Assembly (NCBI GenBank): GCA_014874475.1
Contig: JADBJJ010000025.1
Location: forward strand, 1-64,000
Direction: 5' to 3'
Source of the DNA: Chloroflexota bacterium
GTDB lineage: Bacteria; Chloroflexota; Anaerolineae; B4-G1; DUEL01
Length of the DNA stretch: 64,000 bases
Part shown: positions 1 to 12,353 of the stretch, piece after piece
Numbering within the stretch: the first letter of the stretch is position 1
How the letters are laid out: every line of letters begins with the position of its first letter
Notes under the pieces: generated by a model
Database searches by the model: none
What the model saw: the letters and a program-made list of their open reading frames with translations, nothing else
Told to the model about the DNA's origin: nothing
Translations under genes and position numbers: made by a program

Positions 1-151
1 GGTACATCGCTGTTCCCCAGGTGGGGCCGAAAGAACGTTTGCACACTCGGCATACCCAACGCTGGCGTCCCCCTTTGTGGCCGTTTCGTACCCCGTGCGT
101 GGCCTTACAGTGGGGGCAGGAAGGATTATCCGGAGAAGGTTTCCGTCCCAT
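1..151 (-). CDS. Transposase N-terminal zinc ribbon (partial, IS1/InsA-like)
   Basis: An open frame starts at an ATG at 151 and runs 50 codons off the left edge. An excellent Shine-Dalgarno sequence (AGGAGGTGG) sits just upstream. The visible part is a zinc ribbon: C12-x2-C15, then a basic segment with NGHKGGRQRW, then C34-x2-C37 followed by RSFGPTWGT. This Cys4 layout and the Q-R-(W/Y)-x-C-x2-C block are typical of the N-terminal DNA-binding ribbon of IS1/InsA-like transposases. Most of the protein, including any catalytic domain, lies outside the window, so the exact IS family cannot be fixed. It faces away from the EcfT gene and probably separates that gene from its original neighbours. 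Confidence 0.6.
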   Translation of the reverse strand, partial: MGRKPSPDNPSCPHCKATHGVRNGHKGGRQRWVCRVCKRSFGPTWGTAMY

Positions 152-197
152 TTTCCACCTCCTGCCCTTATTATACCACAAATCACTACTAGTTGGA

Positions 198-956
198 GTG
201 ATTACCCACCGTCTGGACCCCCGGACGAAAATCATCGGGGTCCTGCTCCTCTTCGGTATCGTGATGGTCTTCAACCATCCGCTGTATATGGCGGCGGTCG
301 CTCTGGGGCTGGTGCTGCTGGGAGCAGCGGCGAAGGCGTTGCTCAACTTCTGGCGGATGCGCTACATTCTCGCCCTGCTGGTGGTCTTCAGCACAGTGCT
401 GTGGCCCTTTTTCGCCAAAGGGCCGACCCCACTGTGGTCGTGGGGCCGGCTGGAGGTGAGCCGGGAGTCGCTGATGTACGCGATCGCAATGGGGCTGCGG
501 CTGGCATCTTTCGTGGCCGCCGGGCTCATCTTCCTCTCCGTCACCACCAACGAGGAGTTCACTCAGGGGCTGATCCGCCTGGGGTTGCCCTATCCGGTGG
601 CCTTTGCCTTCTCCACCGCTCTGCGTCTGGTGCCGACCTTCGCCGGCGCCGGTGCGACCATCGTTCAGGCCCAGATTTCCCGCGGGCTGGACGTGGAGTC
701 GGGGAACATCTTCCAGCGCGCGGGCAAGTTTATCCCTCTGGGTGTCCCGCTATTTATCTACGCCGTCCGGCACACCAACATGCTGGCTATGGCGCTGGAA
801 TCCAAAGGCTTCAACCCCGGAGCACCGCGCACCTGGTATCTGAATCCCCAGATGCGTCGGGCGGACTACACTGCTCTGGCCGTGCTGATGCTCCTTTTCC
901 TGGTCGCGCTCGTCCTGCGGCTGCAAGGCTACGGCCAGGTCCTGCCGCGACTGTAG
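198..956 (+). CDS. ecfT: ECF transporter transmembrane subunit EcfT
   Basis: Integral membrane scaffold of an energy-coupling factor vitamin/metal importer; it couples two ATPases to a substrate-binding S component. The GTG at 198 was chosen because it yields the usual family opening (ITHRLDPRTK). The open frame extends further upstream, but that part overlaps the divergent transposase and is not family-like. Several hydrophobic segments follow. The two cytoplasmic coupling helices are visible as AQISRGLD and ALESKGF, variants of the conserved Ala-Arg-Gly motifs that contact the ATPases. Length (252 aa) is normal. No EcfA or S-component gene is in the window; the upstream neighbour is a transposase fragment, so the gene may have been separated from its operon. 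Confidence 0.85.
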   Translation: MITHRLDPRTKIIGVLLLFGIVMVFNHPLYMAAVALGLVLLGAAAKALLNFWRMRYILALLVVFSTVLWPFFAKGPTPLWSWGRLEVSRESLMYAIAMGLRLASFVAAGLIFLSVTTNEEFTQGLIRLGLPYPVAFAFSTALRLVPTFAGAGATIVQAQISRGLDVESGNIFQRAGKFIPLGVPLFIYAVRHTNMLAMALESKGFNPGAPRTWYLNPQMRRADYTALAVLMLLFLVALVLRLQGYGQVLPRL

Positions 957-1002
957 GGGGGAGGCACGGGGAGTTTTGGGGCAGTACCGCCACTTATCAA
1001 AC

Positions 1003-1020
1003 CCTTCCCTAACGGGAAGG
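1003..1020 (+). terminator. Weak hairpin after ecfT
   Basis: CCTTCCC and GGGAAGG pair around a TAAC loop, 46 bases after the ecfT stop and before the trkA pair. No T-run follows, so termination is uncertain. Confidence 0.3.
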
Positions 1021-1075
1021 AGGGGTAAACTGCTGCCCAACAGGACAGCGATTCCACGGGAGTTCTGAAGTATCT

Positions 1076-1747
1076 ATGCACATCATCATTGTCGGTTGTG
1101 GACGTACGGGTTCTCTTCTGGCCCGCACACTGGCTGAACGGGGTCACCAGGTCGTCGTGGTGGACCCGAATCCAGACCAGTTTCTCCGATTGGGGCCAAA
1201 TTTTCGCGGCCGTACCATCACCGGTCTGGGATTTGACCGGGATGTCCTCTTGCGAGCGGGGATAGAACAGGCCCAGGGTGTGGCAGCCGTCACCAGCGAC
1301 GAAATGGCCAACCTTCTGGTTGCCTTCATCGCCCGCTCTCACTTCAATGTTCCCAACGTGGTCGCCCGTCTATTTGAGCCGGAGCGGGCCGCCCTCTACC
1401 AGGCCATTGGCGTCCCGGTCGTGACGGCGGCAAAGTGGCGGGCCCACCGCTTGGAGCAACTGCTCTGCCAGCCTGCACTGAACGTGGTGGACACCGTGGG
1501 TAACGGGGAAGTCACCATCGTGGAACTGCGGGTCCCGCCGGCCTGGGCAGGCCAGCCGATCTCTTTCCTGTTCATCCCGGAAAAGACCATCCCTACGGCG
1601 CTGATCCGCGGGGGAACGGCCCGTATTCCGACCCCAGATATCTCGCTGGAGGCTGGGGACATTGTTCGCCTCAGCATAGCGACGGGCGCCCTGGAGGACT
1701 TGCGGGCCCGATTGGCTCAGGCAGGAGGGGTGGAATGCGCGTCGTGA
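1076..1747 (+). CDS. trkA: TrkA-family potassium channel/transporter regulatory protein (first of pair)
   Basis: Cytosolic regulatory subunit of a Trk/Ktr potassium uptake system. Residues 1-120 form an RCK/TrkA-N Rossmann domain with the nucleotide-binding glycine pattern GCGRTG near the start and an acidic residue (VVDPNPD) at the end of the second strand. The C-terminal 80 residues fit a TrkA-C (RCK-C) domain. At 223 aa it is a single-unit TrkA of the CeoB/KtrA size. It overlaps the next trkA-like gene by 13 bases, so the two are probably translationally coupled and work as a heteromer, as paired TrkA proteins do in Actinobacteria and Chloroflexi. No TrkH/KtrB membrane subunit is in the window. 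Confidence 0.85.
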   Translation: MHIIIVGCGRTGSLLARTLAERGHQVVVVDPNPDQFLRLGPNFRGRTITGLGFDRDVLLRAGIEQAQGVAAVTSDEMANLLVAFIARSHFNVPNVVARLFEPERAALYQAIGVPVVTAAKWRAHRLEQLLCQPALNVVDTVGNGEVTIVELRVPPAWAGQPISFLFIPEKTIPTALIRGGTARIPTPDISLEAGDIVRLSIATGALEDLRARLAQAGGVECAS

Positions 1748-2403
1748 TCGTCGGTGGTGGGAAGGTGGGCTCCCATCTGGCCTCTCTCTTGCTGGCCGAT
1801 GGGTACGAGGTCTGCGTGGTGGAGAACCGCTCCTCGGTGCTGGCCCGGCTGTACCGGGAACTCCCCACAGAGATAGTGATGGATGGGGACGGAACCCGGA
1901 TGAATACGCTGGAGCAAGCGGGCGTTCGCTCCTCCGATGTTCTGGTTGCCGTCACCGGTGATGACGAGGTCAACCTGGCTGTGGCGATGATGGGCCGGTT
2001 CATCTTCAATGTACCGCGCATCATCGTCCGGGTCAACAACCCCCGCAACGCTTGGCTCTTTACCCCTGAAGCGGGCGTGGACGTCGCTCTGAACCAGTCG
2101 GACTTGCTGGCGAAACTGATCGCCGAGGAGATGTCCATGGGGGATATGATGACGCTGCTGCGGCTGCGACGGGGGGAACTGGCGATTGTGACGGAGAAAC
2201 TGGAGCGGGGCGCAAAAGCGGACGGTCAGCGCATTGCCGACCTTCCTATTCCGCCCGACTGTCTGTTGATGGCGGTGGTGCGGGGGGAGGAGATTCTGGT
2301 GCCGCGCGGCGAGACAGTGCTCCAGCCGGGAGACGAGGTGCTGGCACTGGTGCGCGGGGATGCCCGTCGGGCTCTCCACACCCTGCTGACCGGTGCACCG
2401 TGA
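1735..2403 (+). CDS. trkA: TrkA-family potassium channel/transporter regulatory protein (second of pair)
   Basis: Second TrkA-N/TrkA-C protein (222 aa), starting inside the end of the preceding gene. The Rossmann glycine pattern is GGGKVG. At the end of strand 2 it has Glu (VVENRS) where the first protein has Asp, so the two copies may differ in nucleotide preference. The C-terminal TrkA-C part contains the usual (D/G)E(V/I)L-type strand (GDEVLALV). The divergence between neighbours argues for two specialised subunits rather than a recent duplication. The gene ends at a strong bidirectional hairpin shared with the convergent SHOCT-like gene. Confidence 0.85.
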   Translation: MRVVIVGGGKVGSHLASLLLADGYEVCVVENRSSVLARLYRELPTEIVMDGDGTRMNTLEQAGVRSSDVLVAVTGDDEVNLAVAMMGRFIFNVPRIIVRVNNPRNAWLFTPEAGVDVALNQSDLLAKLIAEEMSMGDMMTLLRLRRGELAIVTEKLERGAKADGQRIADLPIPPDCLLMAVVRGEEILVPRGETVLQPGDEVLALVRGDARRALHTLLTGAP

Positions 2404-2410
2404 ACAGGGA

Positions 2411-2448
2411 GAAAGTGCCGGGCACTCCCGGAAGTGCCTGGCACTTTC
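2411..2448. terminator. Bidirectional hairpin / palindromic repeat between convergent genes
   Basis: An almost perfect inverted repeat (GAAAGTGCCGGGCACT pairing with AGTGCCTGGCACTTTC, one mismatch) lies exactly between the convergent trkA and SHOCT-like stop codons. Its A-rich and T-rich ends let it act as a terminator in both directions. A clearly related sequence occurs at 36696-36733, so it also belongs to a small palindromic repeat family. Confidence 0.7.
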
Positions 2449-2812
2449 ATTCCACATATATCTCCACCCGCTCGTTGTCTTCCTCGTCCTCTATCTCCAC
2501 GATTTTCCCGATTGCGCCGCTGGTGATGGCCTCCGTCAGCCCCTGCCAGTCCACCTCGGTCTCCGGGGCGAAACGTTCCGCGATGCGCAGGCCCACCTTC
2601 ACCAACTGAAGGGGGATGGTGATGTTGACTTTGTTCTTTCCCGACCCGATGTCGGTCACGCGCACATGTAAGAAGCGCCCTGCGCCGCGCGGGCTGGGGC
2701 CGACGGGCCCGGTCTTCTGACCGATCGCGCGCAGGAGCGCGGCCGCCTCCTCCGCCGTGATTTTTCCCTCTTCCAGCATCTGGAGAATCTTCAGTCGCTC
2801 TTCTGTCGTCAT
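2447..2812 (-). CDS. SHOCT-like domain protein
   Basis: A 121-residue protein with no signal peptide or membrane segment. Residues 1-30 form a short helical hairpin (LKILQMLEEGKITAEEAAALL) of the SHOCT-like type found at the N-terminus of YvlB/LiaX proteins and bacterial DUF2089/DUF4097 proteins. The rest is a small alpha/beta domain (INITIPLQL-like strand, then EVDW and a charged C-terminus). It is the last gene of a minus-strand run DUF4097 protein, MFS, MFS, SHOCT-like protein. The same motif recurs in two other genes nearby, which suggests a shared protein-protein interaction module. Molecular function is unknown. Confidence 0.7.
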   Translation of the reverse strand: MTTEERLKILQMLEEGKITAEEAAALLRAIGQKTGPVGPSPRGAGRFLHVRVTDIGSGKNKVNITIPLQLVKVGLRIAERFAPETEVDWQGLTEAITSGAIGKIVEIEDEEDNERVEIYVE

Positions 2813-2890
2813 GCGCCACCTCCGTTGAGATTGCCAGTTCCTCTGTAGTGCGGGCTGGCAGCCGGTAGAACCCAGGCCAGGCGGCCTGCG

Positions 2891-4168
2891 CTACGCTACG
2901 CTTTCCGTCAGCCCTCCCGACACAGGAGCAGAAGACGCCACCTGGTCTTCCATGCCCACAATCGCCGGGACAAGGAAAGAGACCACCCCCATCAGGGCAC
3001 AGACGGCGCCGCCGACCAGGAACCAGACCTGCACGCCCAGCCAGTCAGCCACGGGGCCAGCGATAGCGGTCCCCAGAGGCATCATCGCCCCGGCGATGCT
3101 CCCGATAGTCGTGAGGACGCGCCCCTGGAGTTCGGGGGCCACTCGCGCCTGCAGGATGGCGAACACCGGCCCGTTGGTGATGGGGTTCATCGCTCCGGCG
3201 AAGAACATAGCCGCCAACGCCAGGATAAAGCCTTCCGGCGGCACCAGTCCCAGGACCAGTACACTGACCCCCATCCCCACCAACCCCATCAGTGTGGTCA
3301 GGATGCGGCGGCGAAAGCCGCCCCATCCGCTCAGGGTCAGCCCACCGACGACAACGCCGATCCCCCATGCCGACTCCATCCACCCCAGTTCCAGTGCCCC
3401 CCGTCCAAAATGACGGGTGATGAGGATGGGCATCAGCGCAAATCCGGGGTTGATGGTGAAGTTAATGACCGTCGCCATAAGCAGGAGAGCCCGTGCTCCC
3501 GGCCATCGCCAGATGTAGCGCAGTCCCTCCATCACGTCCTGAACCAGGGAGGACGGGGCATTGGCCCGCCCGCGCGCCGCTGGCTGCGGGATGGGGATGA
3601 AGCAGAGGGGAAGGACCGCCAGCAACGCCGTCCCCACGTCTATCGCCAGGATGCCATAGAGGGGGAGGATGCCCCAGAGCAGGGCCCCCACTGGCGGAGC
3701 GACAATCTGTAATGCCCCGTTCAGCGCCTGGTTGAAGCCAGCGACGCGCGCCAGGTGGCGCTCCGGGATCATCAGCGAGGTGGAGGCCTGCATAGCCGCC
3801 CAGTGGAAAACGCCGCCCACCGAGCGGAGGAACATCACCAGAAAAACGTGCCACACCTGCATGATTCCCAGCGCGGACAGGGCTGCCAGGACGAGGATGG
3901 TCATGGCGATGAGACTGTCGGTCACGATCATCACCAGCCGTCGGTTCCAGCGGTCCACCAGTGCCCCGACGAAGGGGCCCAGGAAGACCTGAGGCAGGAG
4001 AGCCACCATCGTCGCCAAACCCAGCACCGTCGCCGAGCCGGTGGTCTTCGTCAGCCACCAGACCAGGGCAAATTGCACCAGTATGCTCCCGAAGAGGGAG
4101 AAGGCCTGACCGGTCCAGATGGTGAAGAACCGGGCGGCCCAGTTGGAGGGAAGATTTTGTTGGGTCAT
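2891..4168 (-). CDS. MFS transporter (second of overlapping pair)
   Basis: Major facilitator superfamily efflux-type permease, 425 aa with about twelve hydrophobic segments. The first segment follows MTQQNLPSNWAARFF. The loop between helices 2 and 3 carries the MFS signature (GALVDRWNRR, matching G-x3-D-R-x-x-R). The ATG at 4168 was chosen because it overlaps the stop of the upstream MFS gene in an ATGA junction; longer in-frame starts would run through that gene. Overall character (VQFALVWWL, LGWMESAWGIG) resembles macrolide/tetracycline-type exporters, but the substrate cannot be told. Two MFS genes in tandem with translational coupling hint at co-dependence. Confidence 0.85.
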   Translation of the reverse strand: MTQQNLPSNWAARFFTIWTGQAFSLFGSILVQFALVWWLTKTTGSATVLGLATMVALLPQVFLGPFVGALVDRWNRRLVMIVTDSLIAMTILVLAALSALGIMQVWHVFLVMFLRSVGGVFHWAAMQASTSLMIPERHLARVAGFNQALNGALQIVAPPVGALLWGILPLYGILAIDVGTALLAVLPLCFIPIPQPAARGRANAPSSLVQDVMEGLRYIWRWPGARALLLMATVINFTINPGFALMPILITRHFGRGALELGWMESAWGIGVVVGGLTLSGWGGFRRRILTTLMGLVGMGVSVLVLGLVPPEGFILALAAMFFAGAMNPITNGPVFAILQARVAPELQGRVLTTIGSIAGAMMPLGTAIAGPVADWLGVQVWFLVGGAVCALMGVVSFLVPAIVGMEDQVASSAPVSGGLTESVA

Positions 4169-5430
4169 GACTTGCTGCCCACAGGAAGGGATTCTGGCCG
4201 TGCCACCGGGCGCTCTGCTCGTCCGAAGAGAGCCAGGGTCAGCAGCGCGGCGAAGAGATAAGTGGTCGCCGTCGTTATGAAGAGCGGCGCGAAGCCGAAA
4301 CTGCGCTGGACGAATCCGCTGATGCCTGGGCCGATCCCCTGTCCCACCGAGAAGGCGATGCCGATCATCGCTCCTACCGTCCCCCGCTCGTTCTCCCGCA
4401 CTCGCTCCATCGCGAAGGCGGTGTAGAGAGGGCCGGCCATATTCATCAGCATCGCCCGCAGCCAGAAGGCTCCGACCGCAATGGGCAGAATGGGTACAAA
4501 CCCCAGCGTCAGCAGGAAGGGCAGGGAGGCCAGTTGAGTGAAGACGACGGTGCGGATTTTGCCCCACCGTTCCGCCAGGATCGGCGCCAGGAGCGTGGCG
4601 CTTCCCATCAGCAACTGGGAGACGGCGAAGGTCAGCCCCAGTACGCTATCCGGGATATGGAAGCGCTGTTTGAAGAAAATGTTCAGGTACGGGATGAGCA
4701 ATCCCGCCCCCAGCGCGATCACCAGTTCGGGCACCAGCAGCGCAACGACGTCCCGACGGAAAGGGAAATCCCGCAGGGTGAAAGGCCGACGATGATCCCC
4801 TGCCGGGCGAACCCGTTCTTCCCGAATCATCAGCAGGGGAATCAGGGCGAATGCCATTATCCCCTCGGCAGTCAGCAGGGTGGCCCGGTATGCCGTCACA
4901 CTCTCCGGGTGGACCCGCAGCAGAACGCCAAAGAGGGCGGGGAAAGAGCCGCCGATGGCACTCCCCAGGAAGCCCATCAGCAGGGAGAGGCCCGATTGGA
5001 GGCTGAAGAGCGTTGGGCGCTCGTCTTCGGTGGCGTTCTCGGCCATGAAGGCAGGGCCGGAGGCCATAAAGAGGGCGTTCCCCGCCCCGTAGAAGACTGC
5101 CGCTACCAGCAGGGGCCAATCCGCTGAGGGAAGGGTCAGCAGCAAGGTGGCAGCGACGGAAAGGGTGGCTCCGGTCCCCATTGCCCGCTTGCGCCCTATC
5201 CGGTCCACCAGAACCCCCATGGGCAAGCCCAGGAACAGAGCGGAGAGGCTCATGCTGGACATCAGCAGGCCCAGGAAGGCCTCATCGTTGCCCCGAGAGA
5301 GCACGAAGAGGTTCATGAAGAGCATGAAGATGCCGCTCCCCAGGGCACTGACGGACACTGTGACCAGAAATAGTTTGGCGTTGCGGCTCAATCCAGCCGC
5401 GCGGCGAAGTTGGCGGGTGAGAGGGTTCAT
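4165..5430 (-). CDS. MFS transporter (first of overlapping pair)
   Basis: A 421-residue major facilitator permease with about twelve hydrophobic segments. The conserved helix 2-3 loop is GVLVDRIGRKRA. It is only distantly similar to the partner gene that follows by a four-base ATGA overlap. It starts 20 bases after the DUF4097 gene stop, so LiaX-like protein, MFS and MFS are likely one transcript. A drug or metabolite efflux role is plausible from family and context; the substrate is unknown. Confidence 0.85.
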   Translation of the reverse strand: MNPLTRQLRRAAGLSRNAKLFLVTVSVSALGSGIFMLFMNLFVLSRGNDEAFLGLLMSSMSLSALFLGLPMGVLVDRIGRKRAMGTGATLSVAATLLLTLPSADWPLLVAAVFYGAGNALFMASGPAFMAENATEDERPTLFSLQSGLSLLMGFLGSAIGGSFPALFGVLLRVHPESVTAYRATLLTAEGIMAFALIPLLMIREERVRPAGDHRRPFTLRDFPFRRDVVALLVPELVIALGAGLLIPYLNIFFKQRFHIPDSVLGLTFAVSQLLMGSATLLAPILAERWGKIRTVVFTQLASLPFLLTLGFVPILPIAVGAFWLRAMLMNMAGPLYTAFAMERVRENERGTVGAMIGIAFSVGQGIGPGISGFVQRSFGFAPLFITTATTYLFAALLTLALFGRAERPVARPESLPVGSKS

Positions 5431-5450
5431 ATCCGTGCTCCGTGTTCTGT

Positions 5451-6671
5451 TCAGCGGCCTTCCAGCGCGGCGATGAGATCGGCCGCCTGCTCGGGGGTGA
5501 GTTTGCCTTCCTCCACCAGGCGAAGCACCCGGAGGATTTCCTCGCTGGCCACTGTTGGACGGGTGGGTTCAGGGCGACGGCCGCTGGCCCGCTGCCAGCG
5601 CCGCTCGGCCCGTTCCGCCTGCATACGGGCCCGTTCCGCTTCCCGTCGGGCCCGTTCTGCCTCCTGACGTGCCTCTCTGCGAGCCCGCTCCGCTTCCCGT
5701 CGGGCCGCCTCCCCAGCCTCCCGGGCATATCGCTCCGCTGCTTGGCGAGCCCGCTCCGCTGCCCGTTCTACCCGTCGGCGGATTTCTTCGCTGTCTACGG
5801 AACGGAGGGTCTCATCCAGACGAGCCTCCAGCATGGCTATCGCCTCCGCAACGCGGGCCTCCACAACGGCCCCGACGTCCTCCATCCCGGCTGCCCATGC
5901 ATTCCACTCCGCCCCCTCGCCCGTTTCCGGTACTAAGAGAATGTGACTGCCTGCCGTGACCTCCAGCAGCGCCTCCCCGCTCCCCAGCGCGCCGGTCATC
6001 ATACCTCCCGTCTCGGCGAGGGAGAGGCCCGGGATAGTGGAGCGGATTCGCCCACCCGCGCGGAGGGCGAAGCGGATGCTGGCGTCGGCGGGGACGACGA
6101 TATGGGCCGTGCTGCCGACCCCGAATCGGTACGTTGCGCCGGGGACATAGGGCGGGCGCAGCCGCAGGTCGGCCCCGATGCCTTCCACTGCTGCTCCGCC
6201 CCGCAGACCGGCAGCCCGCAGGTCTCCGCGGACGGCGCGGACAGAAAGGAAGCCATCCACTTCCTGGATGCGGGCGTCCCCGAACACTTCGCGGATGCGG
6301 ACCTCCCCGGAAACAGCGTGCAGGGAGAGGTCGCCGTAGATTTCGTCCAGGGTCAGGGGGCCCACTCCGCGCAATCTCCCGTCCCCAGAGACCGCGCCGA
6401 CAGTCAGAGGGCCGGAGATGTCTTGGACCCGCAGGTCGCCCCGCACCGCCGCCAGGGTCGGGCGGGCCTTGCGCGGACAGACCAGATAGGCATCGGTGCG
6501 CAGGGTCAGGAAGAACGTCTCCCCTTCCCGCCGGAGGGAGAGCGCATCGGTGCCGTTGCGGAGAGAGATGGTCAGGCGCGGCTCGTCGGCTCCCTGGACC
6601 GATAGGTCGCCCAGGCATTCCTCAACAACGATAGTGGGCGAAAGAGTGGTATCTACAGCCTGGTTCCACAT
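5451..6671 (-). CDS. DUF4097-type beta-solenoid protein with coiled coil and C-terminal SHOCT-like motif (LiaX/YvlB-like, rearranged)
   Basis: A 406-residue protein with three parts. Residues about 30-250 are a DUF4097/adhesin-like beta-solenoid, seen as repeats of the form (G)DLxVxxVSG(D). Residues about 285-365 are a highly charged Arg/Glu/Ala coiled coil (repeated EAERARREA). The last 30 residues are an EEGKLTPEQAADLI helical hairpin. The same building blocks occur in Firmicute YvlB/LiaX, envelope-stress proteins, but there the hairpin is N-terminal and the solenoid C-terminal; here the order is reversed. No signal peptide is visible. SD GGTGGAG precedes the ATG. It heads the run that continues into two MFS permeases. 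Confidence 0.75.
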   Translation of the reverse strand: MWNQAVDTTLSPTIVVEECLGDLSVQGADEPRLTISLRNGTDALSLRREGETFFLTLRTDAYLVCPRKARPTLAAVRGDLRVQDISGPLTVGAVSGDGRLRGVGPLTLDEIYGDLSLHAVSGEVRIREVFGDARIQEVDGFLSVRAVRGDLRAAGLRGGAAVEGIGADLRLRPPYVPGATYRFGVGSTAHIVVPADASIRFALRAGGRIRSTIPGLSLAETGGMMTGALGSGEALLEVTAGSHILLVPETGEGAEWNAWAAGMEDVGAVVEARVAEAIAMLEARLDETLRSVDSEEIRRRVERAAERARQAAERYAREAGEAARREAERARREARQEAERARREAERARMQAERAERRWQRASGRRPEPTRPTVASEEILRVLRLVEEGKLTPEQAADLIAALEGR

Positions 6672-6876
6672 AATTTCTCCACCATTTATTTATGCAAGTT
6701 CGCGGTTTTAGATAGATGGGCTGCGGGACGCGCCGCCGCCCCTTCATTAATGGGCACCGAAACGTACCGGGGTAAGCACAGGCTGGGCAGACAGAGCGAA
6801 CCGCGCCCTTTTGCTCTGAGACTACCCGGCAGGCTGGGGATGGGGCCCAGTCCCCTATCGGCCTCATCGTGGCGCA

Positions 6877-7104
6877 TTAACCGGTCTGACGGACTTGCCA
6901 GGACGACGGGGACACCGGGGCCGGGTATTGCTCCTGCAATTTTTGCCCCCAATGGACCAGATGTTGCCCCAAAACCCGCAGCGCATGCCGATAGAACGGT
7001 TCACGGAGTTTCCTGACCAACAAAGGAAAACGATGTTCCTCCCTCTCTTGCAGCAAATTATGGTATCCCTTGTAATGGGCCACCATCTCCAGCCAGGTCA
7101 TCAT
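6877..7104 (-). CDS. Small hypothetical protein (75 aa)
   Basis: A short charged protein rich in His, Tyr and Leu (TWLEMVAHYKGYHNLL, then REPFYRHALRVLGQ), predicted largely helical and soluble. It is supported by a strong Shine-Dalgarno sequence (GGGAGGTG) five bases before tandem ATG codons, and by protein-like composition up to about residue 60. The last 14 residues look less constrained. It lies between the DUF2089 regulator and the DUF4097-MFS run on the same strand. No family is recognised. Confidence 0.5.
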   Translation of the reverse strand: MMTWLEMVAHYKGYHNLLQEREEHRFPLLVRKLREPFYRHALRVLGQHLVHWGQKLQEQYPAPVSPSSWQVRQTG

Positions 7105-7240
7105 GACACACCTCCCTTCCTGAGCGAAATAACTGGCGGTTCAGAAGTTTATCAGAAACAACGATGAGAGAAACCAAACTGAACTTGTCCTGTTAAGGAA
7201 GAAAAATCCGCGTTCATCTACGCTCTACTTCCGACGGAGT

Positions 7241-7603
7241 TTAGAGCAGTTGCAGGGCCTCTTCAGCGGTGATTTCCCGCCGGGCCAACCGCTGGAGGAC
7301 CTCCTGGCGGCGGCTCTCGGCGTCTTCTCGCTCCTCCCGCACCTCGTACCCCAGGGCGCGGATGACCTCCTCCAGCCGATTGCGGACGGTGGGGTAGGAG
7401 AGCCCCAGTTCCTCCTGGACGCGGTTCAGTTTCCCCTCGCAGCGGAGGAAGAGTTCCACGAAATCAGCCTGTTCGGGAGTGAGAGAGGCCAGGCGCCCGA
7501 GAGTGAAACGGCCCTCCAGGGCCGTACCGCAGGTCGGACAGACCATGCGGGCAATATGCAGTTCATCATGGCACACAGGACAATGGACAGGTGCCGGATA
7601 CAT
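7241..7603 (-). CDS. DUF2089 family zinc-ribbon/HTH protein
   Basis: A 120-residue probable DNA-binding regulator. The N-terminus is a zinc ribbon (CPVCHDEL then CPTCG, four Cys in two CxxC pairs). The middle is a sigma-like helix-turn-helix (LTPEQADFVELFLRCEGKLNRVQEELGLSYPTVRN-type layout, DUF2089). The C-terminus ends in a short helical hairpin (ARREITAEEALQLL) matching that of two neighbouring genes. The ATG at 7603 was chosen over one 11 codons upstream because a GGAGG motif lies just before it. A consensus promoter and an inverted repeat directly upstream suggest autoregulation. It may control the downstream DUF4097-MFS genes. Confidence 0.8.
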   Translation of the reverse strand: MYPAPVHCPVCHDELHIARMVCPTCGTALEGRFTLGRLASLTPEQADFVELFLRCEGKLNRVQEELGLSYPTVRNRLEEVIRALGYEVREEREDAESRRQEVLQRLARREITAEEALQLL

Positions 7604-7642
7604 GGGTTGCCTCCTGAAAAAAATTTTATCCAACACTTGAGA

Positions 7643-7671
7643 ATTTTAACACAGAACTTAATTTTTGTCAA
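7643..7671 (-). promoter_or_regulatory. Promoter of the DUF2089 gene with overlapping inverted repeat
   Basis: On the minus strand TTGACA is followed after exactly 17 bases by TAAAAT, ending about 40 bases before the ATG. An inverted repeat (ACTTGAgAA and TTtTCAAGT arms, roughly 7636-7673) brackets both hexamers and could be an operator for self-repression by the HTH protein. Confidence 0.7.
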
Positions 7672-7708
7672 GTCCTGAAAAATAGTTCTTTTGGCGATGG
7701 GGTGAAGC

Positions 7709-7790
7709 AGTCTCCCTATAGAGGGTTGCTGAATCTTCACCGCCGCGCAAGAAGGCCGAGTTCCGTTTCCGGGATAAGGGCGGGCGTACC
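7709..7790 (-). repeat. 82-bp dispersed repeat, copy 1
   Basis: Reverse complement of 7709-7790 matches 35390-35471 at 75 of 82 positions (counted by eye). It lies in the 381-base gap between the DUF2089 gene and the sigma factor. No coding frame is conserved between the copies. The core reads GCGCGGCGGTGAAGATTCA and the right end CTATAGGGAGACT. Confidence 0.75.
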
Positions 7791-7909
7791 ATCCAGCACA
7801 TCGGCCCCACGTGAAAGAATGACTTCGGCAATCCGCTGTCCCCAACGGCCTTCGCCGGCTGGAAAGCGTCAACGCCGGTGGACACGGTGCGTAAAAGTGT
7901 CCAGAGGAG

Positions 7910-7926
7910 ACCGATTCCCAATCGGT
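7910..7926. promoter_or_regulatory. Perfect inverted repeat upstream of the sigma factor promoter
   Basis: ACCGATT-CCC-AATCGGT lies 17 bases upstream of the -35 element of the sigma factor promoter. Position and symmetry fit an activator or repressor site; no binding protein is assigned. Confidence 0.4.
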
Positions 7927-7943
7927 GCAGAGAGAGGGAGCAG

Positions 7944-7972
7944 TTGACATTTCCTTAACTGAAGATTACAAT
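7944..7972 (+). promoter_or_regulatory. Consensus housekeeping promoter of the ECF sigma gene
   Basis: A perfect TTGACA is followed by a 17-base spacer and TACAAT. Transcription should start near 7979, which excludes the longest reading frame start (7925) and leaves only about six bases before the ATG at 7985. Confidence 0.75.
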
Positions 7973-7984
7973 AAGAATATAGCC

Positions 7985-8629
7985 ATGATTGCTTTGCTCC
8001 CTACCCGATTCGTGCATCTTTGGCGCGGGATTCTGGCCTTCTCCAACGACATTTCTTATAGAGAAGGCCAGCGCGCTACGCCATCTGAGCAGGACCTGAT
8101 GCGGCGGCTGGCCCGCAGAGACCCGGATGCCGCGGCAGAGATGGTCCGGGCTTACGGGGATATGGTCTATCGGTTCATCTACAATCAGGTAGGGGGTATT
8201 GTGGAAGACGCAGAGGACATCACACAGGAAACCTTTCTGGCAGCACTCCAGAGCGCTCACCGGTTTCGCGGAGATAGTCGCCTGCGCACATGGCTGTTCC
8301 GGATCGCCGCCCATAAAATCGCCGACCACTGGCGCTCCCGCCGCAAACGGCCCCCCGAATTTTCTCTGGAAGACTGGCGCCCCACCGCTGACGAAGACGT
8401 GGCCCCTCTCACATTTCTGGAGGAAGCCGAGGTTCGGGATCGGGTGCGCACTGCCCTTCTGACTCTGCCTCCCCATTACCGGACCGCCCTAGTGCTCCGG
8501 TACGTGGAGGATATGCCGGTGGCCGAAATGGCCCAGGTGATGAACCGAAGTCTCAAAAGTGTGGAGTCCATCCTGATCCGCGCAAAACAGATGTTGGGGC
8601 AGACCCTGAGTAAAACGGATGAGTCTTGA
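7985..8629 (+). CDS. ECF-type RNA polymerase sigma factor
   Basis: A 214-residue sigma-70 family factor. Region 2 is seen in DMVYRFIYNQ, EDAEDITQETFLAAL and the DNA-melting segment FRGDSRLRTWLFRIAAHKIADHWR. Region 4 is the HTH (LPPHYRTALVLRYVEDMPVAEMAQVMNRS-type, split by a linker rich in Asp/Glu/Pro). The start at 7985 is dictated by the promoter just upstream; a later ATG at 8099 is possible. The gene overlaps the FecR-like anti-sigma gene by 11 bases, the classic arrangement for co-translation and control of the factor by its membrane partner. Likely targets are the surface-protein genes that follow. Confidence 0.9.
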   Translation: MIALLPTRFVHLWRGILAFSNDISYREGQRATPSEQDLMRRLARRDPDAAAEMVRAYGDMVYRFIYNQVGGIVEDAEDITQETFLAALQSAHRFRGDSRLRTWLFRIAAHKIADHWRSRRKRPPEFSLEDWRPTADEDVAPLTFLEEAEVRDRVRTALLTLPPHYRTALVLRYVEDMPVAEMAQVMNRSLKSVESILIRAKQMLGQTLSKTDES

Positions 8630-9896
8630 GCAAGTCGTAGAAGAACTGCTACGGGCGCTGGCACGGGAGGACGTGCGGTTGCGGCCCGCCTTCAGGGTTC
8701 AGTTGACCGAGCGGCTCATTGCCGCGATGGCTGCGCGCCCGCGCGTCCTCTGGTGGCGCCCGGTGTTGGCTGGGGCCGTCGCACTTCTCGTCCTGGCCAT
8801 CGCCGGATGGCTCCTGACCCCGCGTGTCACCCACTGGGCGACCCTCGCAGTCCAGGACGGTGTGGCTTGGGTCACCTGGCAGCGCCCCCTCTATTTTCGC
8901 TGGACCCGTTCCGGGACCGCTCAGGTCTCCGGGGGGCAGGAGTTCCTTCTGGCCGAAAAGGACCGGCTGACCCTTTCCCCGGACGGTCAGGGGAGCATCG
9001 CCTTTCCGGACGGAAGTCAGTTGCGCCTGATGGGTGCAACCGCTCTGACCCTGGCGGAGATGAACCCGGCCCAGATGACTACCCGAGCGAGGGTAGAGGC
9101 CGGTGAGGTATGGGCAGAAGTCCCTTCGCTCCCTGACCTGTTCTTTGAGATTCAAACGCCCGCGGCGACTGTGCGGGTACGTGGCACGGTTTTCCGTACC
9201 CGCGTTCTCGCCGCCGACCATACTTACAGCGCCACCGATGAAGGAACCACCCAGGTGACGCTGCTGGACCCGGCCCAGGGGTATCCATCGGTGGAAGTCC
9301 CCGCAGGCTATGAGGTGGATGCCATCATCGGTCAGCCGCTGCGGGTCCGCCCTCAGGCCCCCTCCATAGACCACTTAAGCCTGAACGGCCTCACCGTCGG
9401 GGCTCAGGCCTTCGTGACCTCTAACCGGTCGTCGCTGGAAATCTCTGGAAGGACGATCGCCAGGCATTGTGATGCCCTTCTGCTCGTCAGGGGGAGCGTA
9501 GTGGACCGGGCACCAGTCACACCAGAGGGGGAGTTCACTCTCCGCTTCCGGGCTCCGGCGGAGGGAGAGTATCCTATCTGCATCGCAGTAGAGGCTCCCA
9601 ATGGCCCACTGAGCCCCTGTCTCTTTTTGACTTACCATTACGACGCGACGCCCCCCGGCGTCCTACGCCTGCTGGCGCCCACCATGCCCGAGGTCTCTGA
9701 GGAGATCGTCACCATCCAGGGGGAGACGGAGGCCGGTGCAATGGTCCGGCTGAACGGGGAGATGGTCTCTGTGGACCAGGCGGGGGTATTTACGGTCCGC
9801 TGGAGACTGCAGCCGGGGGAGAACCCGATCACTCTGGAATCCTGCGACGAAGCGGGTAACTGTGCCCGTCTGGAGTTTGTCCTGATCCGGCGGTAG
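8619..9896 (+). CDS. FecR-domain membrane protein, probable anti-sigma factor
   Basis: A 425-residue protein with a short cytoplasmic N-terminus (1-45), one membrane helix (about 48-67) and a large extracytoplasmic part. Residues about 105-215 are a FecR domain (GSxLRLxGAT, TRARVEAGEVWAEV, TPAATVRVRGTVFRT). The C-terminal 180 residues look like two Ig-like domains, the last ending GENPITLESCDEAGN as in glucodextranase/cadherin-like repeats. Start is fixed by the overlap with the sigma gene. By analogy with FecR and similar proteins it should bind the sigma factor inside and sense a surface signal outside; the Ig domains may contact the surface proteins encoded next. No classical zinc anti-sigma motif is present. 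Confidence 0.85.
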   Translation: MSLEQVVEELLRALAREDVRLRPAFRVQLTERLIAAMAARPRVLWWRPVLAGAVALLVLAIAGWLLTPRVTHWATLAVQDGVAWVTWQRPLYFRWTRSGTAQVSGGQEFLLAEKDRLTLSPDGQGSIAFPDGSQLRLMGATALTLAEMNPAQMTTRARVEAGEVWAEVPSLPDLFFEIQTPAATVRVRGTVFRTRVLAADHTYSATDEGTTQVTLLDPAQGYPSVEVPAGYEVDAIIGQPLRVRPQAPSIDHLSLNGLTVGAQAFVTSNRSSLEISGRTIARHCDALLLVRGSVVDRAPVTPEGEFTLRFRAPAEGEYPICIAVEAPNGPLSPCLFLTYHYDATPPGVLRLLAPTMPEVSEEIVTIQGETEAGAMVRLNGEMVSVDQAGVFTVRWRLQPGENPITLESCDEAGNCARLEFVLIRR

Positions 9897-9943
9897 GACA
9901 ACCGTTGGATTTGTCTGGCCTGCCCTGACGTTGGAGGCGAAAG

Positions 9944-10768
9944 ATGCGAAAAGGATGGCTGGTGGGTTGGGTCCTCATCGGCGGCCTGCTACTCTGGGGG
10001 GCGAGCGTCCGGGATTCCGCCGTCGCTGGCTTCACTCCCACCTTCACGCCCACCGAGACGCCGACCAGTACGCCAACCGCGACCCCCACAGAGACGCCCA
10101 CTCCCACGGCGACATCCATTCCGCCCTCACCGCCGCCACCTCCTCCGCCGCCACCGCCACCCCCTCCACCGCCCGCGGAGACGCCGACCGCTTCTCCCAC
10201 CGCCACCCAACGGCCCACGCGGACCCCCACCCGGGGCCCGTCGCCCACTCCCTGGTGCTTCACCGCCACGCCGGAAGTGCCCGGCATCGTGGTGGAGAAA
10301 GAGGTCAACCCTCCCACCGTCTCCCTGGGGCAGAATGTCCGGATCACCATCCGGGTCCGAAATACGAGCACTCGACCGATATCCGGGCTGGTTGTGGAAG
10401 ATACCCTTCCCGCCTTTCTGCAAATTCTCTCCGTCCGTTCCACGCGGGGCATCCCTGCCATCTCTGGCCAGACGGTGCGGGTCGCCGTGGGGACACTGGA
10501 AGCGGGTGGCCAGGTCATCGTTGCAATAGAGGCACAGGCCCGCGCCGATGCGCTTGCCGGTACGGTGGTGGAGAACATCGCTGTGGCCTCATATGACGGA
10601 GGCCGAAGCACCGGCCCGTTCCCTCTCCCGACCCCAGACCGTCCAATGTGTCCGCTGATCCCTGAGGCAGGCAAGATTTCCCAACCCCCGTCCTCTGCCG
10701 GTCCATTGCTCCTTCTGGGGCTGGCGCTACTGGCCCTCAGCCTGGCCATTCGGCGAAAAACAGCGTAG
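9944..10768 (+). CDS. Surface protein with Thr-Pro/poly-Pro stalk, one DUF11 domain and LPXTG-like tail
   Basis: A 274-residue exported protein. It has a signal peptide (hydrophobic run about 8-27), mature start AGFTPTFTPTETPT, a Thr-Pro stalk with a run of some fifteen prolines, one DUF11 domain (about 110-215, EKEVNPPTVSLGQNVRITIRV onwards) and a C-terminal sorting-like signal. That signal is LIPEAG, then a hydrophobic helix (PLLLLGLALLALSLAI), then RRKTA. The layout resembles LPXTG proteins but with an IPEAG core, so covalent anchoring is only inferred. It shares its mature N-terminal motif and tail design with the gene at 12596. It follows the anti-sigma gene by 47 bases. Confidence 0.75.
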   Translation: MRKGWLVGWVLIGGLLLWGASVRDSAVAGFTPTFTPTETPTSTPTATPTETPTPTATSIPPSPPPPPPPPPPPPPPPAETPTASPTATQRPTRTPTRGPSPTPWCFTATPEVPGIVVEKEVNPPTVSLGQNVRITIRVRNTSTRPISGLVVEDTLPAFLQILSVRSTRGIPAISGQTVRVAVGTLEAGGQVIVAIEAQARADALAGTVVENIAVASYDGGRSTGPFPLPTPDRPMCPLIPEAGKISQPPSSAGPLLLLGLALLALSLAIRRKTA

Positions 10769-10844
10769 AAGCCGCGCGGGAAATCGTGCCCTGCTGACGA
10801 CTATCGTTATAGAACAATGTAACTCCACATCGCGGAGGTCAAAA

Positions 10845-11345
10845 GTGAGCGCGGCGCGACTGCTGGTTGTGGACGACAGCCCGGACCTCCTGGCCCTGCT
10901 CAAAGGTTTGCTGGAGCAGGTCAATGGCTTCCAGGTGTTTACAGCCGAAGATGGTCCATCGGCTCTCCGTAAGTTTCTGGAGGTCCAGCCCGATCTGGTC
11001 ATCCTGGACGTTTGGATGCCGGAGATGAGTGGAATAGAAGTGGCGCGCCGCATTCGCCAGAGTTCTTCCGTCCCTATCCTCTTCCTCAGCGCGGTAGGCA
11101 CACCCGAGGTGGTTGCCAGAGGATTGGAAGCGGGGGCCGAAGTATTCCTGACCAAGCCTTTCTCGCCTCGGGTCCTTCTGTCTAAAGTTTTTGAATTGCT
11201 TCACTGGTCAACCCATAAGGCAATTGCTGCATCCTATAATTCTAACTGCGATAAGGGAGGCATCCTTGAGCATGGTTCATATCCTGGTTGTGGCGGAAGA
11301 TGCAGAAATCCTCTCCGCCGTTCGTCATACACTCCAGATGGATGA
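10845..11345 (+). CDS. Single-domain response regulator (receiver) with out-of-family tail
   Basis: Residues 1-120 are a receiver domain: acidic pocket VVDDSPD, phosphoacceptor LVILDVWMPEMSG, Ser in place of the usual Thr (FLSAVG), and the conserved Lys in LTKPF. No output domain is present. The last 40 or so residues (from about HKAIAASYN) run across the next gene in another frame and do not look like protein of any family, so an ancestral stop may have been lost. The gene begins with GTG after a weak SD. It is the first of three tandem regulators with no kinase beside them. Confidence 0.8.
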   Translation: MSAARLLVVDDSPDLLALLKGLLEQVNGFQVFTAEDGPSALRKFLEVQPDLVILDVWMPEMSGIEVARRIRQSSSVPILFLSAVGTPEVVARGLEAGAEVFLTKPFSPRVLLSKVFELLHWSTHKAIAASYNSNCDKGGILEHGSYPGCGGRCRNPLRRSSYTPDG

Positions 11346-11634
11346 GGGCATAAATGTCCTTGCGGTTGGCGATAGCCAGGCAGCGCTCCGCCTTCTGACG
11401 GAGGTCCAGCCCGACCTGATCCTGCTGGATAGGGAGATGACCTTCAGAGAGGGGCTCCATTTACCTGCGAGAATGCGACAGATCTCTTGCGCGCCGATCC
11501 TTTTCTTTACGCGGTCGTATCAAACTCAAATTCCGACGAAAAACAGCGTCGGCGGGAATGGACTGATCTCGCGTATCCAGAAAGCGTTAGCCCGCGCTCG
11601 CATCCAGATTACCTCGCTCAACGTCATTTTATGA
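11266..11634 (+). CDS. Degenerate single-domain response regulator
   Basis: A 122-residue receiver-like protein. Strand 1 and pocket read HILVVAEDAEIL, the phosphoacceptor Asp is kept in LILLDREM, and Thr is kept in LFFTRSY. The conserved Lys-Pro is replaced by PTKNSVGG and a shortened loop, so phosphotransfer may be impaired. A TTG at 11266 was chosen because GGGAGG lies five bases upstream; an ATG follows two codons later. The gene overlaps the preceding regulator by 80 bases and the next one by an ATGA junction, making a tightly coupled trio. Confidence 0.65.
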   Translation: MSMVHILVVAEDAEILSAVRHTLQMDEGINVLAVGDSQAALRLLTEVQPDLILLDREMTFREGLHLPARMRQISCAPILFFTRSYQTQIPTKNSVGGNGLISRIQKALARARIQITSLNVIL

Positions 11635-12353
11635 ACGCGTTGGATTCAACGGCCACTCTTATGGATAAAGAGCGGGTTCTTATTGTAGACGATGATCCTG
11701 AAATGCTCAACCTCCTCCAGGCGCTGCTGGAGAGTCGGGGGTTTGCTGTCTATACGGCCTCCAACGGCGAGATGGCTCTCCATCTTCTTCCTCAGGTTGC
11801 TCCCGACCTGGTGATCCTGGATGTGTTGATGCCCGGGCTGAACGGGAAAGAGGTCTGTCAGCGCATCCGCCGCCATTCTTCTGTCCCTATTCTGTTTCTC
11901 ACAGCGGTCGGGGAGGTAGATTCCGTGGTGGACGGGCTGAACCGGGGGGCGGACGATTATATGACCAAACCGTTCCATCCCTCCGAACTGGTCGCCCGGG
12001 TTCAGGCGATGATGCGGCGCGCTCGGCTCTCCGTGGCTCCCCGGAGGCTGATGCGGTTTCGGGGGGGCGAACTGGTCATCAACCGCGACCTGGGGCGAGT
12101 CTTTCTCCGCGAGGAGGAGGTCCCTCTCAGCCCGCTGGAGTATAATCTGCTCGTTTTTCTGGCCGAACGGGCCGGACACATCCTCCCCCCGGAGACCATT
12201 CATCGGGCTGTATGGGGGCCAAACAGCGATGGGGACCTCAGCCATGTGAAGTGGTACATCTGGCGGCTCCGGCAGAAGATAGAAGCCGACCCGCGAAACC
12301 CCCGGTTTATCTGCACTGATCGGGGCCGGGGATACTACTTTGCCCCGGACTGA
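11631..12353 (+). CDS. OmpR-family response regulator
   Basis: A 240-residue two-domain regulator. The receiver has VLIVDDDPEML, LVILDVLMPGLNG, LTAVG and MTKPF, so all phosphorylation residues are present. The C-terminal winged helix (about 145-238) shows PLSPLEYNLLVFLAE and the recognition region SHVKWYIWRLRQKIE, followed by RGRGYYF. The ATG at 11631 was chosen for its ATGA overlap with the previous stop; 11661 is an alternative. No histidine kinase is adjacent, so it is an orphan here; the nearest kinase is at 48619. The position suggests control of the surface-protein genes on either side. Confidence 0.85.
   Translation: MNALDSTATLMDKERVLIVDDDPEMLNLLQALLESRGFAVYTASNGEMALHLLPQVAPDLVILDVLMPGLNGKEVCQRIRRHSSVPILFLTAVGEVDSVVDGLNRGADDYMTKPFHPSELVARVQAMMRRARLSVAPRRLMRFRGGELVINRDLGRVFLREEEVPLSPLEYNLLVFLAERAGHILPPETIHRAVWGPNSDGDLSHVKWYIWRLRQKIEADPRNPRFICTDRGRGYYFAPD

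Follow-up and report, generated by a model that had tools for sequence, protein, structure and literature searches.

A class-wide DUF2089 gene cluster of Anaerolineae as a probable link between regulator, sub-membrane scaffold and exporters

The locus belongs to a heat-loving Chloroflexota source genome (3.0 Mb assembly, 97.7% complete), and the whole stretch of DNA analysed, 64,000 nucleotides long, is called the window here. The genes have an operon-like layout on the minus strand, where the order of transcription is DUF2089, a 75-aa ORF, Toastrack-SHOCT, MFS B, MFS A and a small SHOCT-CTD gene. The features are:

7643..7671, minus strand: sigma-70-type promoter TTGACA-17-TAAAAT, 11/12 consensus, 39 bases before the DUF2089 start
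7241..7603, minus strand: DUF2089 regulator with zinc ribbon PF22747, HTH PF09862 and a shortened C-terminal SHOCT-like hairpin
7244..7309, minus strand: shortened SHOCT-like hairpin of DUF2089, residues 99-120 (18.3 bits, cut-off 27)
6877..7104, minus strand: 75-aa small ORF, start MMTWLEMVAHYKGY, genus-specific, no Pfam match
5451..6671, minus strand: Toastrack (DUF4097-like) beta-helix, long helical linker and C-terminal SHOCT-like hairpin
5454..5543, minus strand: SHOCT-like domain PF22746 in the Toastrack protein
4165..5430, minus strand: MFS exporter B (MFS_1)
2891..4168, minus strand: MFS exporter A (Mef-like, MFS_1/MFS_3)
2447..2812, minus strand: small SHOCT-CTD protein, a SHOCT-like hairpin followed by a C-terminal domain
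2717..2803, minus strand: SHOCT-like domain PF22746 in the small protein
2450..2680, minus strand: CTD (a name coined in this analysis), a beta-beta-alpha-alpha-beta-beta domain

By gene coordinates the gaps along the operon are 136, 205, 20 and 78 bases in transcription order, with a 4-base overlap between the start of MFS A and the stop of MFS B. The three hairpin genes were found where the original prediction had placed them, all on the minus strand. The 75-aa ORF, which was absent from its gene set, is conserved in 5 genomes of the genus, counting that of the window, with no convincing homologue in the other loci fetched. A search of window positions 1-12000 gave no Rfam match to an RNA element. 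On the plus strand, two TrkA-like (TrkA_N + TrkA_C) genes at 1076-2403 are convergent with the small gene, and such genes adjoin the small SHOCT-CTD gene also in G001, G003 and G004. Also on the plus strand, at 7925-9896, a divergent ECF sigma factor gene is followed, with an 11-base overlap, by that of a FecR-domain membrane protein. This pair was rejected as a part of the system: among the operons mapped, only the window and G003 (one genome entered twice, as L035 and L073) have it, and a sigma match occurs in 2 of 60 class-wide DUF2089 loci (L139 and L140).

The original prediction rested on one helical hairpin recurring in three neighbouring genes, and this is upheld with the qualification that the DUF2089 copy is shortened. 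Two copies lie above the 27-bit cut-off of PF22746 (SHOCT-like_DUF2089-C), namely those of the small protein (43.2 bits, residues 4-32) and of the Toastrack protein (38.0 bits, residues 377-405). The DUF2089 match of 18.3 bits is below the cut-off and ends at profile position 24 of 32, therefore this hairpin is to be read as a shortened and not an equal copy. Judged from the sequence, it is homologous to PF22746 despite the shortening, and 15 of the 20 aligned DUF2089 proteins match the profile at E<=0.01 (best 9.6e-9). The two full copies are predicted to fold as two-helix hairpins, with helices at residues 3-15 and 20-31 in the small protein and at 374-387 and 393-404 in the Toastrack C-terminus. 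Searching the whole 3.0 Mb genome gave only two PF22746 matches, both inside the cluster, and a single DUF2089 match; the sharing of the hairpin exceeds chance. As PF22746 covers the small and Toastrack proteins, the shared hairpin is a catalogued domain, and its likeness to DUF2089 is already recorded in the 'DUF2089-C' of the family's own name. The canonical SHOCT domain, which we take to be PF09851, a different family from PF22746, is not among the Pfam matches shown for the three hairpin proteins. Downstream of another DUF2089 gene (L068:7449-8321), a SHOCT-like hairpin is followed by pentapeptide-like repeats, the repeat being judged by eye.

The DUF2089 protein itself is a clear family member, matching the HTH PF09862 with 81.4 bits and the zinc ribbon PF22747 with 50.1 bits, and the zinc-ribbon cysteines C8, C11, C22 and C25 do not vary in any of the 20 DUF2089 proteins aligned. 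Among named records holding the same DUF2089, MAGs of Thermoflexales / Thermoflexus come closest; Thermoflexus hugenholtzii is named as a cultured species in PMC8129789. The promoter block of the DUF2089 gene shows little or no variation across all 5 same-genus loci aligned. In most loci of the genus this promoter is flanked by two copies of the motif ATTTTTCAGGA or a near-match (window 7610-7700, minus strand); the first copy is absent in G005 and the second overlaps the ribosome-binding site, and the copies are a possible operator.

For the second hairpin protein the label 'DUF4097' was found to be right in predicted fold and wrong by Pfam score, since its 11.3 bits against PF13349 fall short of the 22.9 cut-off; this profile is matched at E<=0.01 by 5 of 14 aligned Toastrack proteins. 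The AF2 model (pLDDT 87.7) shows a beta-helix, then a long helix, a linker and the hairpin. It matches 4QRK (Foldseek E 1.8e-7; Z 10.2, rmsd 2.5, 137 aligned) and 4OPW (Z 11.7, rmsd 3.6, 202 aligned), which places the model in the beta-helix fold of Toastrack / DUF4097, both structures being named as Toastrack exemplars in PMC11237479.

In the model of the small protein (pLDDT 76) the hairpin is followed by a low-confidence linker (residues 32-43) and then by the CTD; in the Toastrack model, too, a low-confidence linker adjoins the well-formed hairpin, such linkers standing before or after it. Among 16 aligned members the only Pfam match of the CTD was a weak one to DUF4315 (E 0.0029), and against the PDB its fold gave no clear match (Foldseek best E 0.41, best Z 4.0), which does not show a new fold because the model is only moderate. 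A PDB sequence search with three alignments also gave no convincing relative. The CTD recurs in 'MID' proteins (SHOCT-TM-CTD), preceded there by a pair of TM helices; two hydrophobic segments lie between hairpin and CTD in all 4 examined and one has a third inside the CTD. In L046 the adaptor sits at the C-terminus of the exporter as an MFS-SHOCT-CTD fusion (548 aa from the start chosen in this analysis), the only MFS-SHOCT fusion among 48 genomes of the order, from a draft assembly. In L081, L083 and L084 SHOCT-CTD stands in one frame behind an N-terminal region that is coiled-coil-like as judged from sequence by eye.

Of 249 genomes in the class, 182 have a DUF2089 match. To count its neighbours, 60 loci from 60 genomes were hand-picked for taxon spread from the listed PF09862 places, with the neighbours not known beforehand, and genes on the same strand up to 6 kb downstream were read as domains with profiles built from these 60 loci and the earlier loci themselves. 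The counts, which are minima because contig ends cut some of the 60 loci, give a co-directional SHOCT gene of any kind in 58 loci, small SHOCT-CTD in 49, Toastrack in 35 (34 of them with SHOCT), GNAT in 26, MFS in 17 and the two-TM MID in 15. In the upstream control, comprising 47 loci with at least 5 kb upstream and read on either strand, we found MFS in 2, GNAT in 1, TrkA-N in 1, and neither SHOCT nor Toastrack. Comparing downstream with upstream, MFS (17/60 vs 2/47, Fisher p = 0.0016), GNAT (26/60 vs 1/47, p = 2.5e-7) and Toastrack (35/60 vs 0/47, p = 4e-12) are all linked to the downstream side. The original prediction was to fall if its genes did not co-occur in other genomes; the linkage proved to be class-wide, with DUF2089 as the constant member and with MFS and GNAT recurring beside it. 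The enzyme seen most often in DUF2089 operons is about 330 aa long and begins with a GNAT domain (26/60; e.g. L062, L063, L072 and L047), which three of these proteins match in Pfam; the window operon is without a GNAT gene.

Within the genus, the order DUF2089-Toastrack-MFS B-MFS A is kept in 5 of 7 genomes, MFS A being truncated in G005 and cut by a contig end in G002. In G004 the SHOCT-CTD gene stands alone (L036:7905-8273) without DUF2089 or other mapped operon genes nearby, possibly from decay or from an incomplete assembly, and G006 has no PF22746 match and a sub-threshold DUF2089 match only. The gene set thus seems able to decay, as G004 and G006 suggest.

Against NCBIfam MefA, MFS A scores 263 bits where the cut-off is 675, so that by this score it is related to Mef-type macrolide exporters and is not a member. 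Homologues from operons in other genera mostly share 47-63% identity with it, whereas the best other MFS of the same genome reaches 28%. Out of 83 homologues in the class, 24 were set aside as the DUF2089 place in their genome was not listed, and 17 of the 59 testable ones lie within 6 kb of DUF2089 vs about 0.4% expected, the expected fraction being from rough figures and the DUF2089 place in G056 from the domain map of this analysis. The MFS proteins of other operons are only distantly related (about 23-36% identity). We also considered MFS A as an operon-specific clade and rejected it, because, of 20 homologues sampled away from DUF2089, only L173 has a SHOCT or Toastrack gene near and the other 19 have none. 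Since MFS is found in 17 of 60 loci and these 19 distant homologues stand without SHOCT or Toastrack, the exporter is an interchangeable accessory, and it looks like an output that has been recruited repeatedly.

The original prediction further proposed that the three proteins interact through the hairpin. For hairpin co-variation, 13 loci judged to be duplicates were dropped. An unrestricted shuffle gave a signal for toast-small (0/2000), DUF2089-small (p 0.004) and, marginally, toast-MID (p 0.042). Yet, set against hairpins from the loci of nearest relatives, those that share a locus show no greater likeness (toast-small p=0.15, DUF2089-small p=0.35, DUF2089-toast p=0.84), and we therefore rejected the toast-small and DUF2089-small co-variation as relatedness. 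In the nearest-relative analysis DUF2089-MID gave p 0.0075 on 24 loci as one of six comparisons and is not relied on; the partial correlations of 0.24-0.49 carry no significance test. One canonical SHOCT domain was a monomer in a published size-exclusion test, with no self-association (PMC3581485). Direct hairpin-hairpin contact is possible but unsupported, and with no co-variation and a monomeric canonical SHOCT, docking on a third membrane partner fits better.

Taken together, the cluster probably connects exporters in the membrane with a scaffold beneath it and with a gene regulator. As to the regulator-sensor-effector set first proposed, a regulator-scaffold-transporter set is a fair description. 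No match to PspA (PF04012) was found in the source genome, 97.7% complete, and none to PspC (PF04024), therefore the operon would act without a PSP effector. Most likely it is an envelope-stress operon that works without PspA, in which scaffold and adaptor lie close to the membrane, the zinc-ribbon-HTH protein regulates itself and the exporters are the output. The reading that we favour, with middling confidence, is that PF22746 hairpins tag three operon products for docking to a common membrane partner in a Lia-like envelope-stress and efflux operon. The tagged products would be the zinc-ribbon/HTH regulator DUF2089, the soluble Toastrack beta-helix scaffold and the small SHOCT-CTD adaptor, and the hairpins, terminal modules borne on flexible linkers, would dock them at the membrane's inner face. 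Their common partner would most likely be a membrane-bound SHOCT-CTD protein, either of the two-TM kind or, compare the L046 fusion, the exporter. Docking, altered by envelope stress or a toxic compound, may keep DUF2089 from its own promoter or release it to it, and the output would be more scaffold and more exporter. In a genome without detectable PspA/PspC this would amount to a stand-alone, Lia-like envelope-stress and efflux operon. A bolder version, which we consider rather unlikely, takes SHOCT-CTD as an undescribed adaptor family coupling DUF2089 and Toastrack to exporters across Anaerolineae, as a PspA-free, kinase-free one-component envelope-stress system with the exporter in the sensing complex.

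It is conceivable, though somewhat unlikely, that the hairpin is a mere membrane-proximity tag, each copy binding by itself to the inner leaflet or to some general component of the membrane so that the proteins need not touch. Such a role is proposed for SHOCT-like domains in PMC11237479, and it fits the absent hairpin co-variation and the absent SHOCT self-association (PMC3581485); a simple hydropathy scan picked up no TM segment in any of the three soluble hairpin proteins. But it leaves the tight SHOCT linkage to one regulator (58/60 loci) unexplained, and the two-TM MID and MFS fusion proteins, already in the membrane, still keep the hairpin. We regard as quite improbable the view that the genes are merely co-regulated and that the hairpins descend from one ancient duplicated domain without a joint role now. 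The hairpins do group by protein type and not by locus (mean identity 0.47-0.58 within a type, 0.37-0.52 across types) and differ in length, and the window's DUF2089 hairpin is degenerate; however, 52 of 60 DUF2089 and 34 of 35 Toastrack proteins retain the hairpin, with several nearly invariant positions that are unexpected for a useless relic. That the genes are neighbours by chance, the efflux pair being generic, is already disfavoured and very improbable, for although MFS genes are common in the genome (21 PF07690 matches, about 17 genes) and members of the MFS-A family are widespread outside DUF2089 loci, the gene order within the genus, the excess of MFS-A homologues close to DUF2089 and the recurrence of the linkage with distant MFS proteins speak against it.

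Envelope-stress sensing beyond Proteobacteria and Bacillota is poorly known, and for DUF2089, a family without assigned function, the class-wide operon gives testable partners in the scaffold, a domain absent from Pfam and the exporters.

As regards known systems, the operon resembles the lia / yvl-LiaXYZ operons of Bacillota (LiaX = YvlB-like), which have an envelope-stress role, in combining Toastrack with a SHOCT-like domain (PMC11237479, PMC10269926). It differs from them in that there is no two-component system among the mapped genes, SHOCT is C-terminal and not N-terminal, and PspC is absent from this genome. Like canonical SHOCT PF09851 (PMC3581485), PF22746 is a short bi-helical module at protein ends with many partners, but it is a separate Pfam family. 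In leaderless bacteriocin clusters a DUF2089-family gene also stands beside efflux genes (ABC/HlyD), but the exporters there are ABC, not MFS, and the DUF2089 proteins are of 89 and 98 aa (PMC7332713 and PMC10707071). The nearest precedent is PMC11237479, published in 2024 and here represented by its main text, which describes DUF2089-Toastrack-SHOCT-like contexts, gives DUF2089 as zinc ribbon-HTH-SHOCT-like in a four-gene context with Toastrack and SHOCT-like proteins, and proposes that such contexts act like the lia operon in a membrane-linked stress response. Both there and in the window, DUF2089 stands next to Toastrack and SHOCT-like proteins. Unlike the window operon, the contexts in that main text include LiaI-LiaF-TM, B-box or PspC variants, and the same main text has no mention of MFS, acetyltransferase or GNAT. 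The SHOCT-CTD-bearing operons with MFS or GNAT go beyond the DUF2089-Toastrack-SHOCT-like context of that main text.
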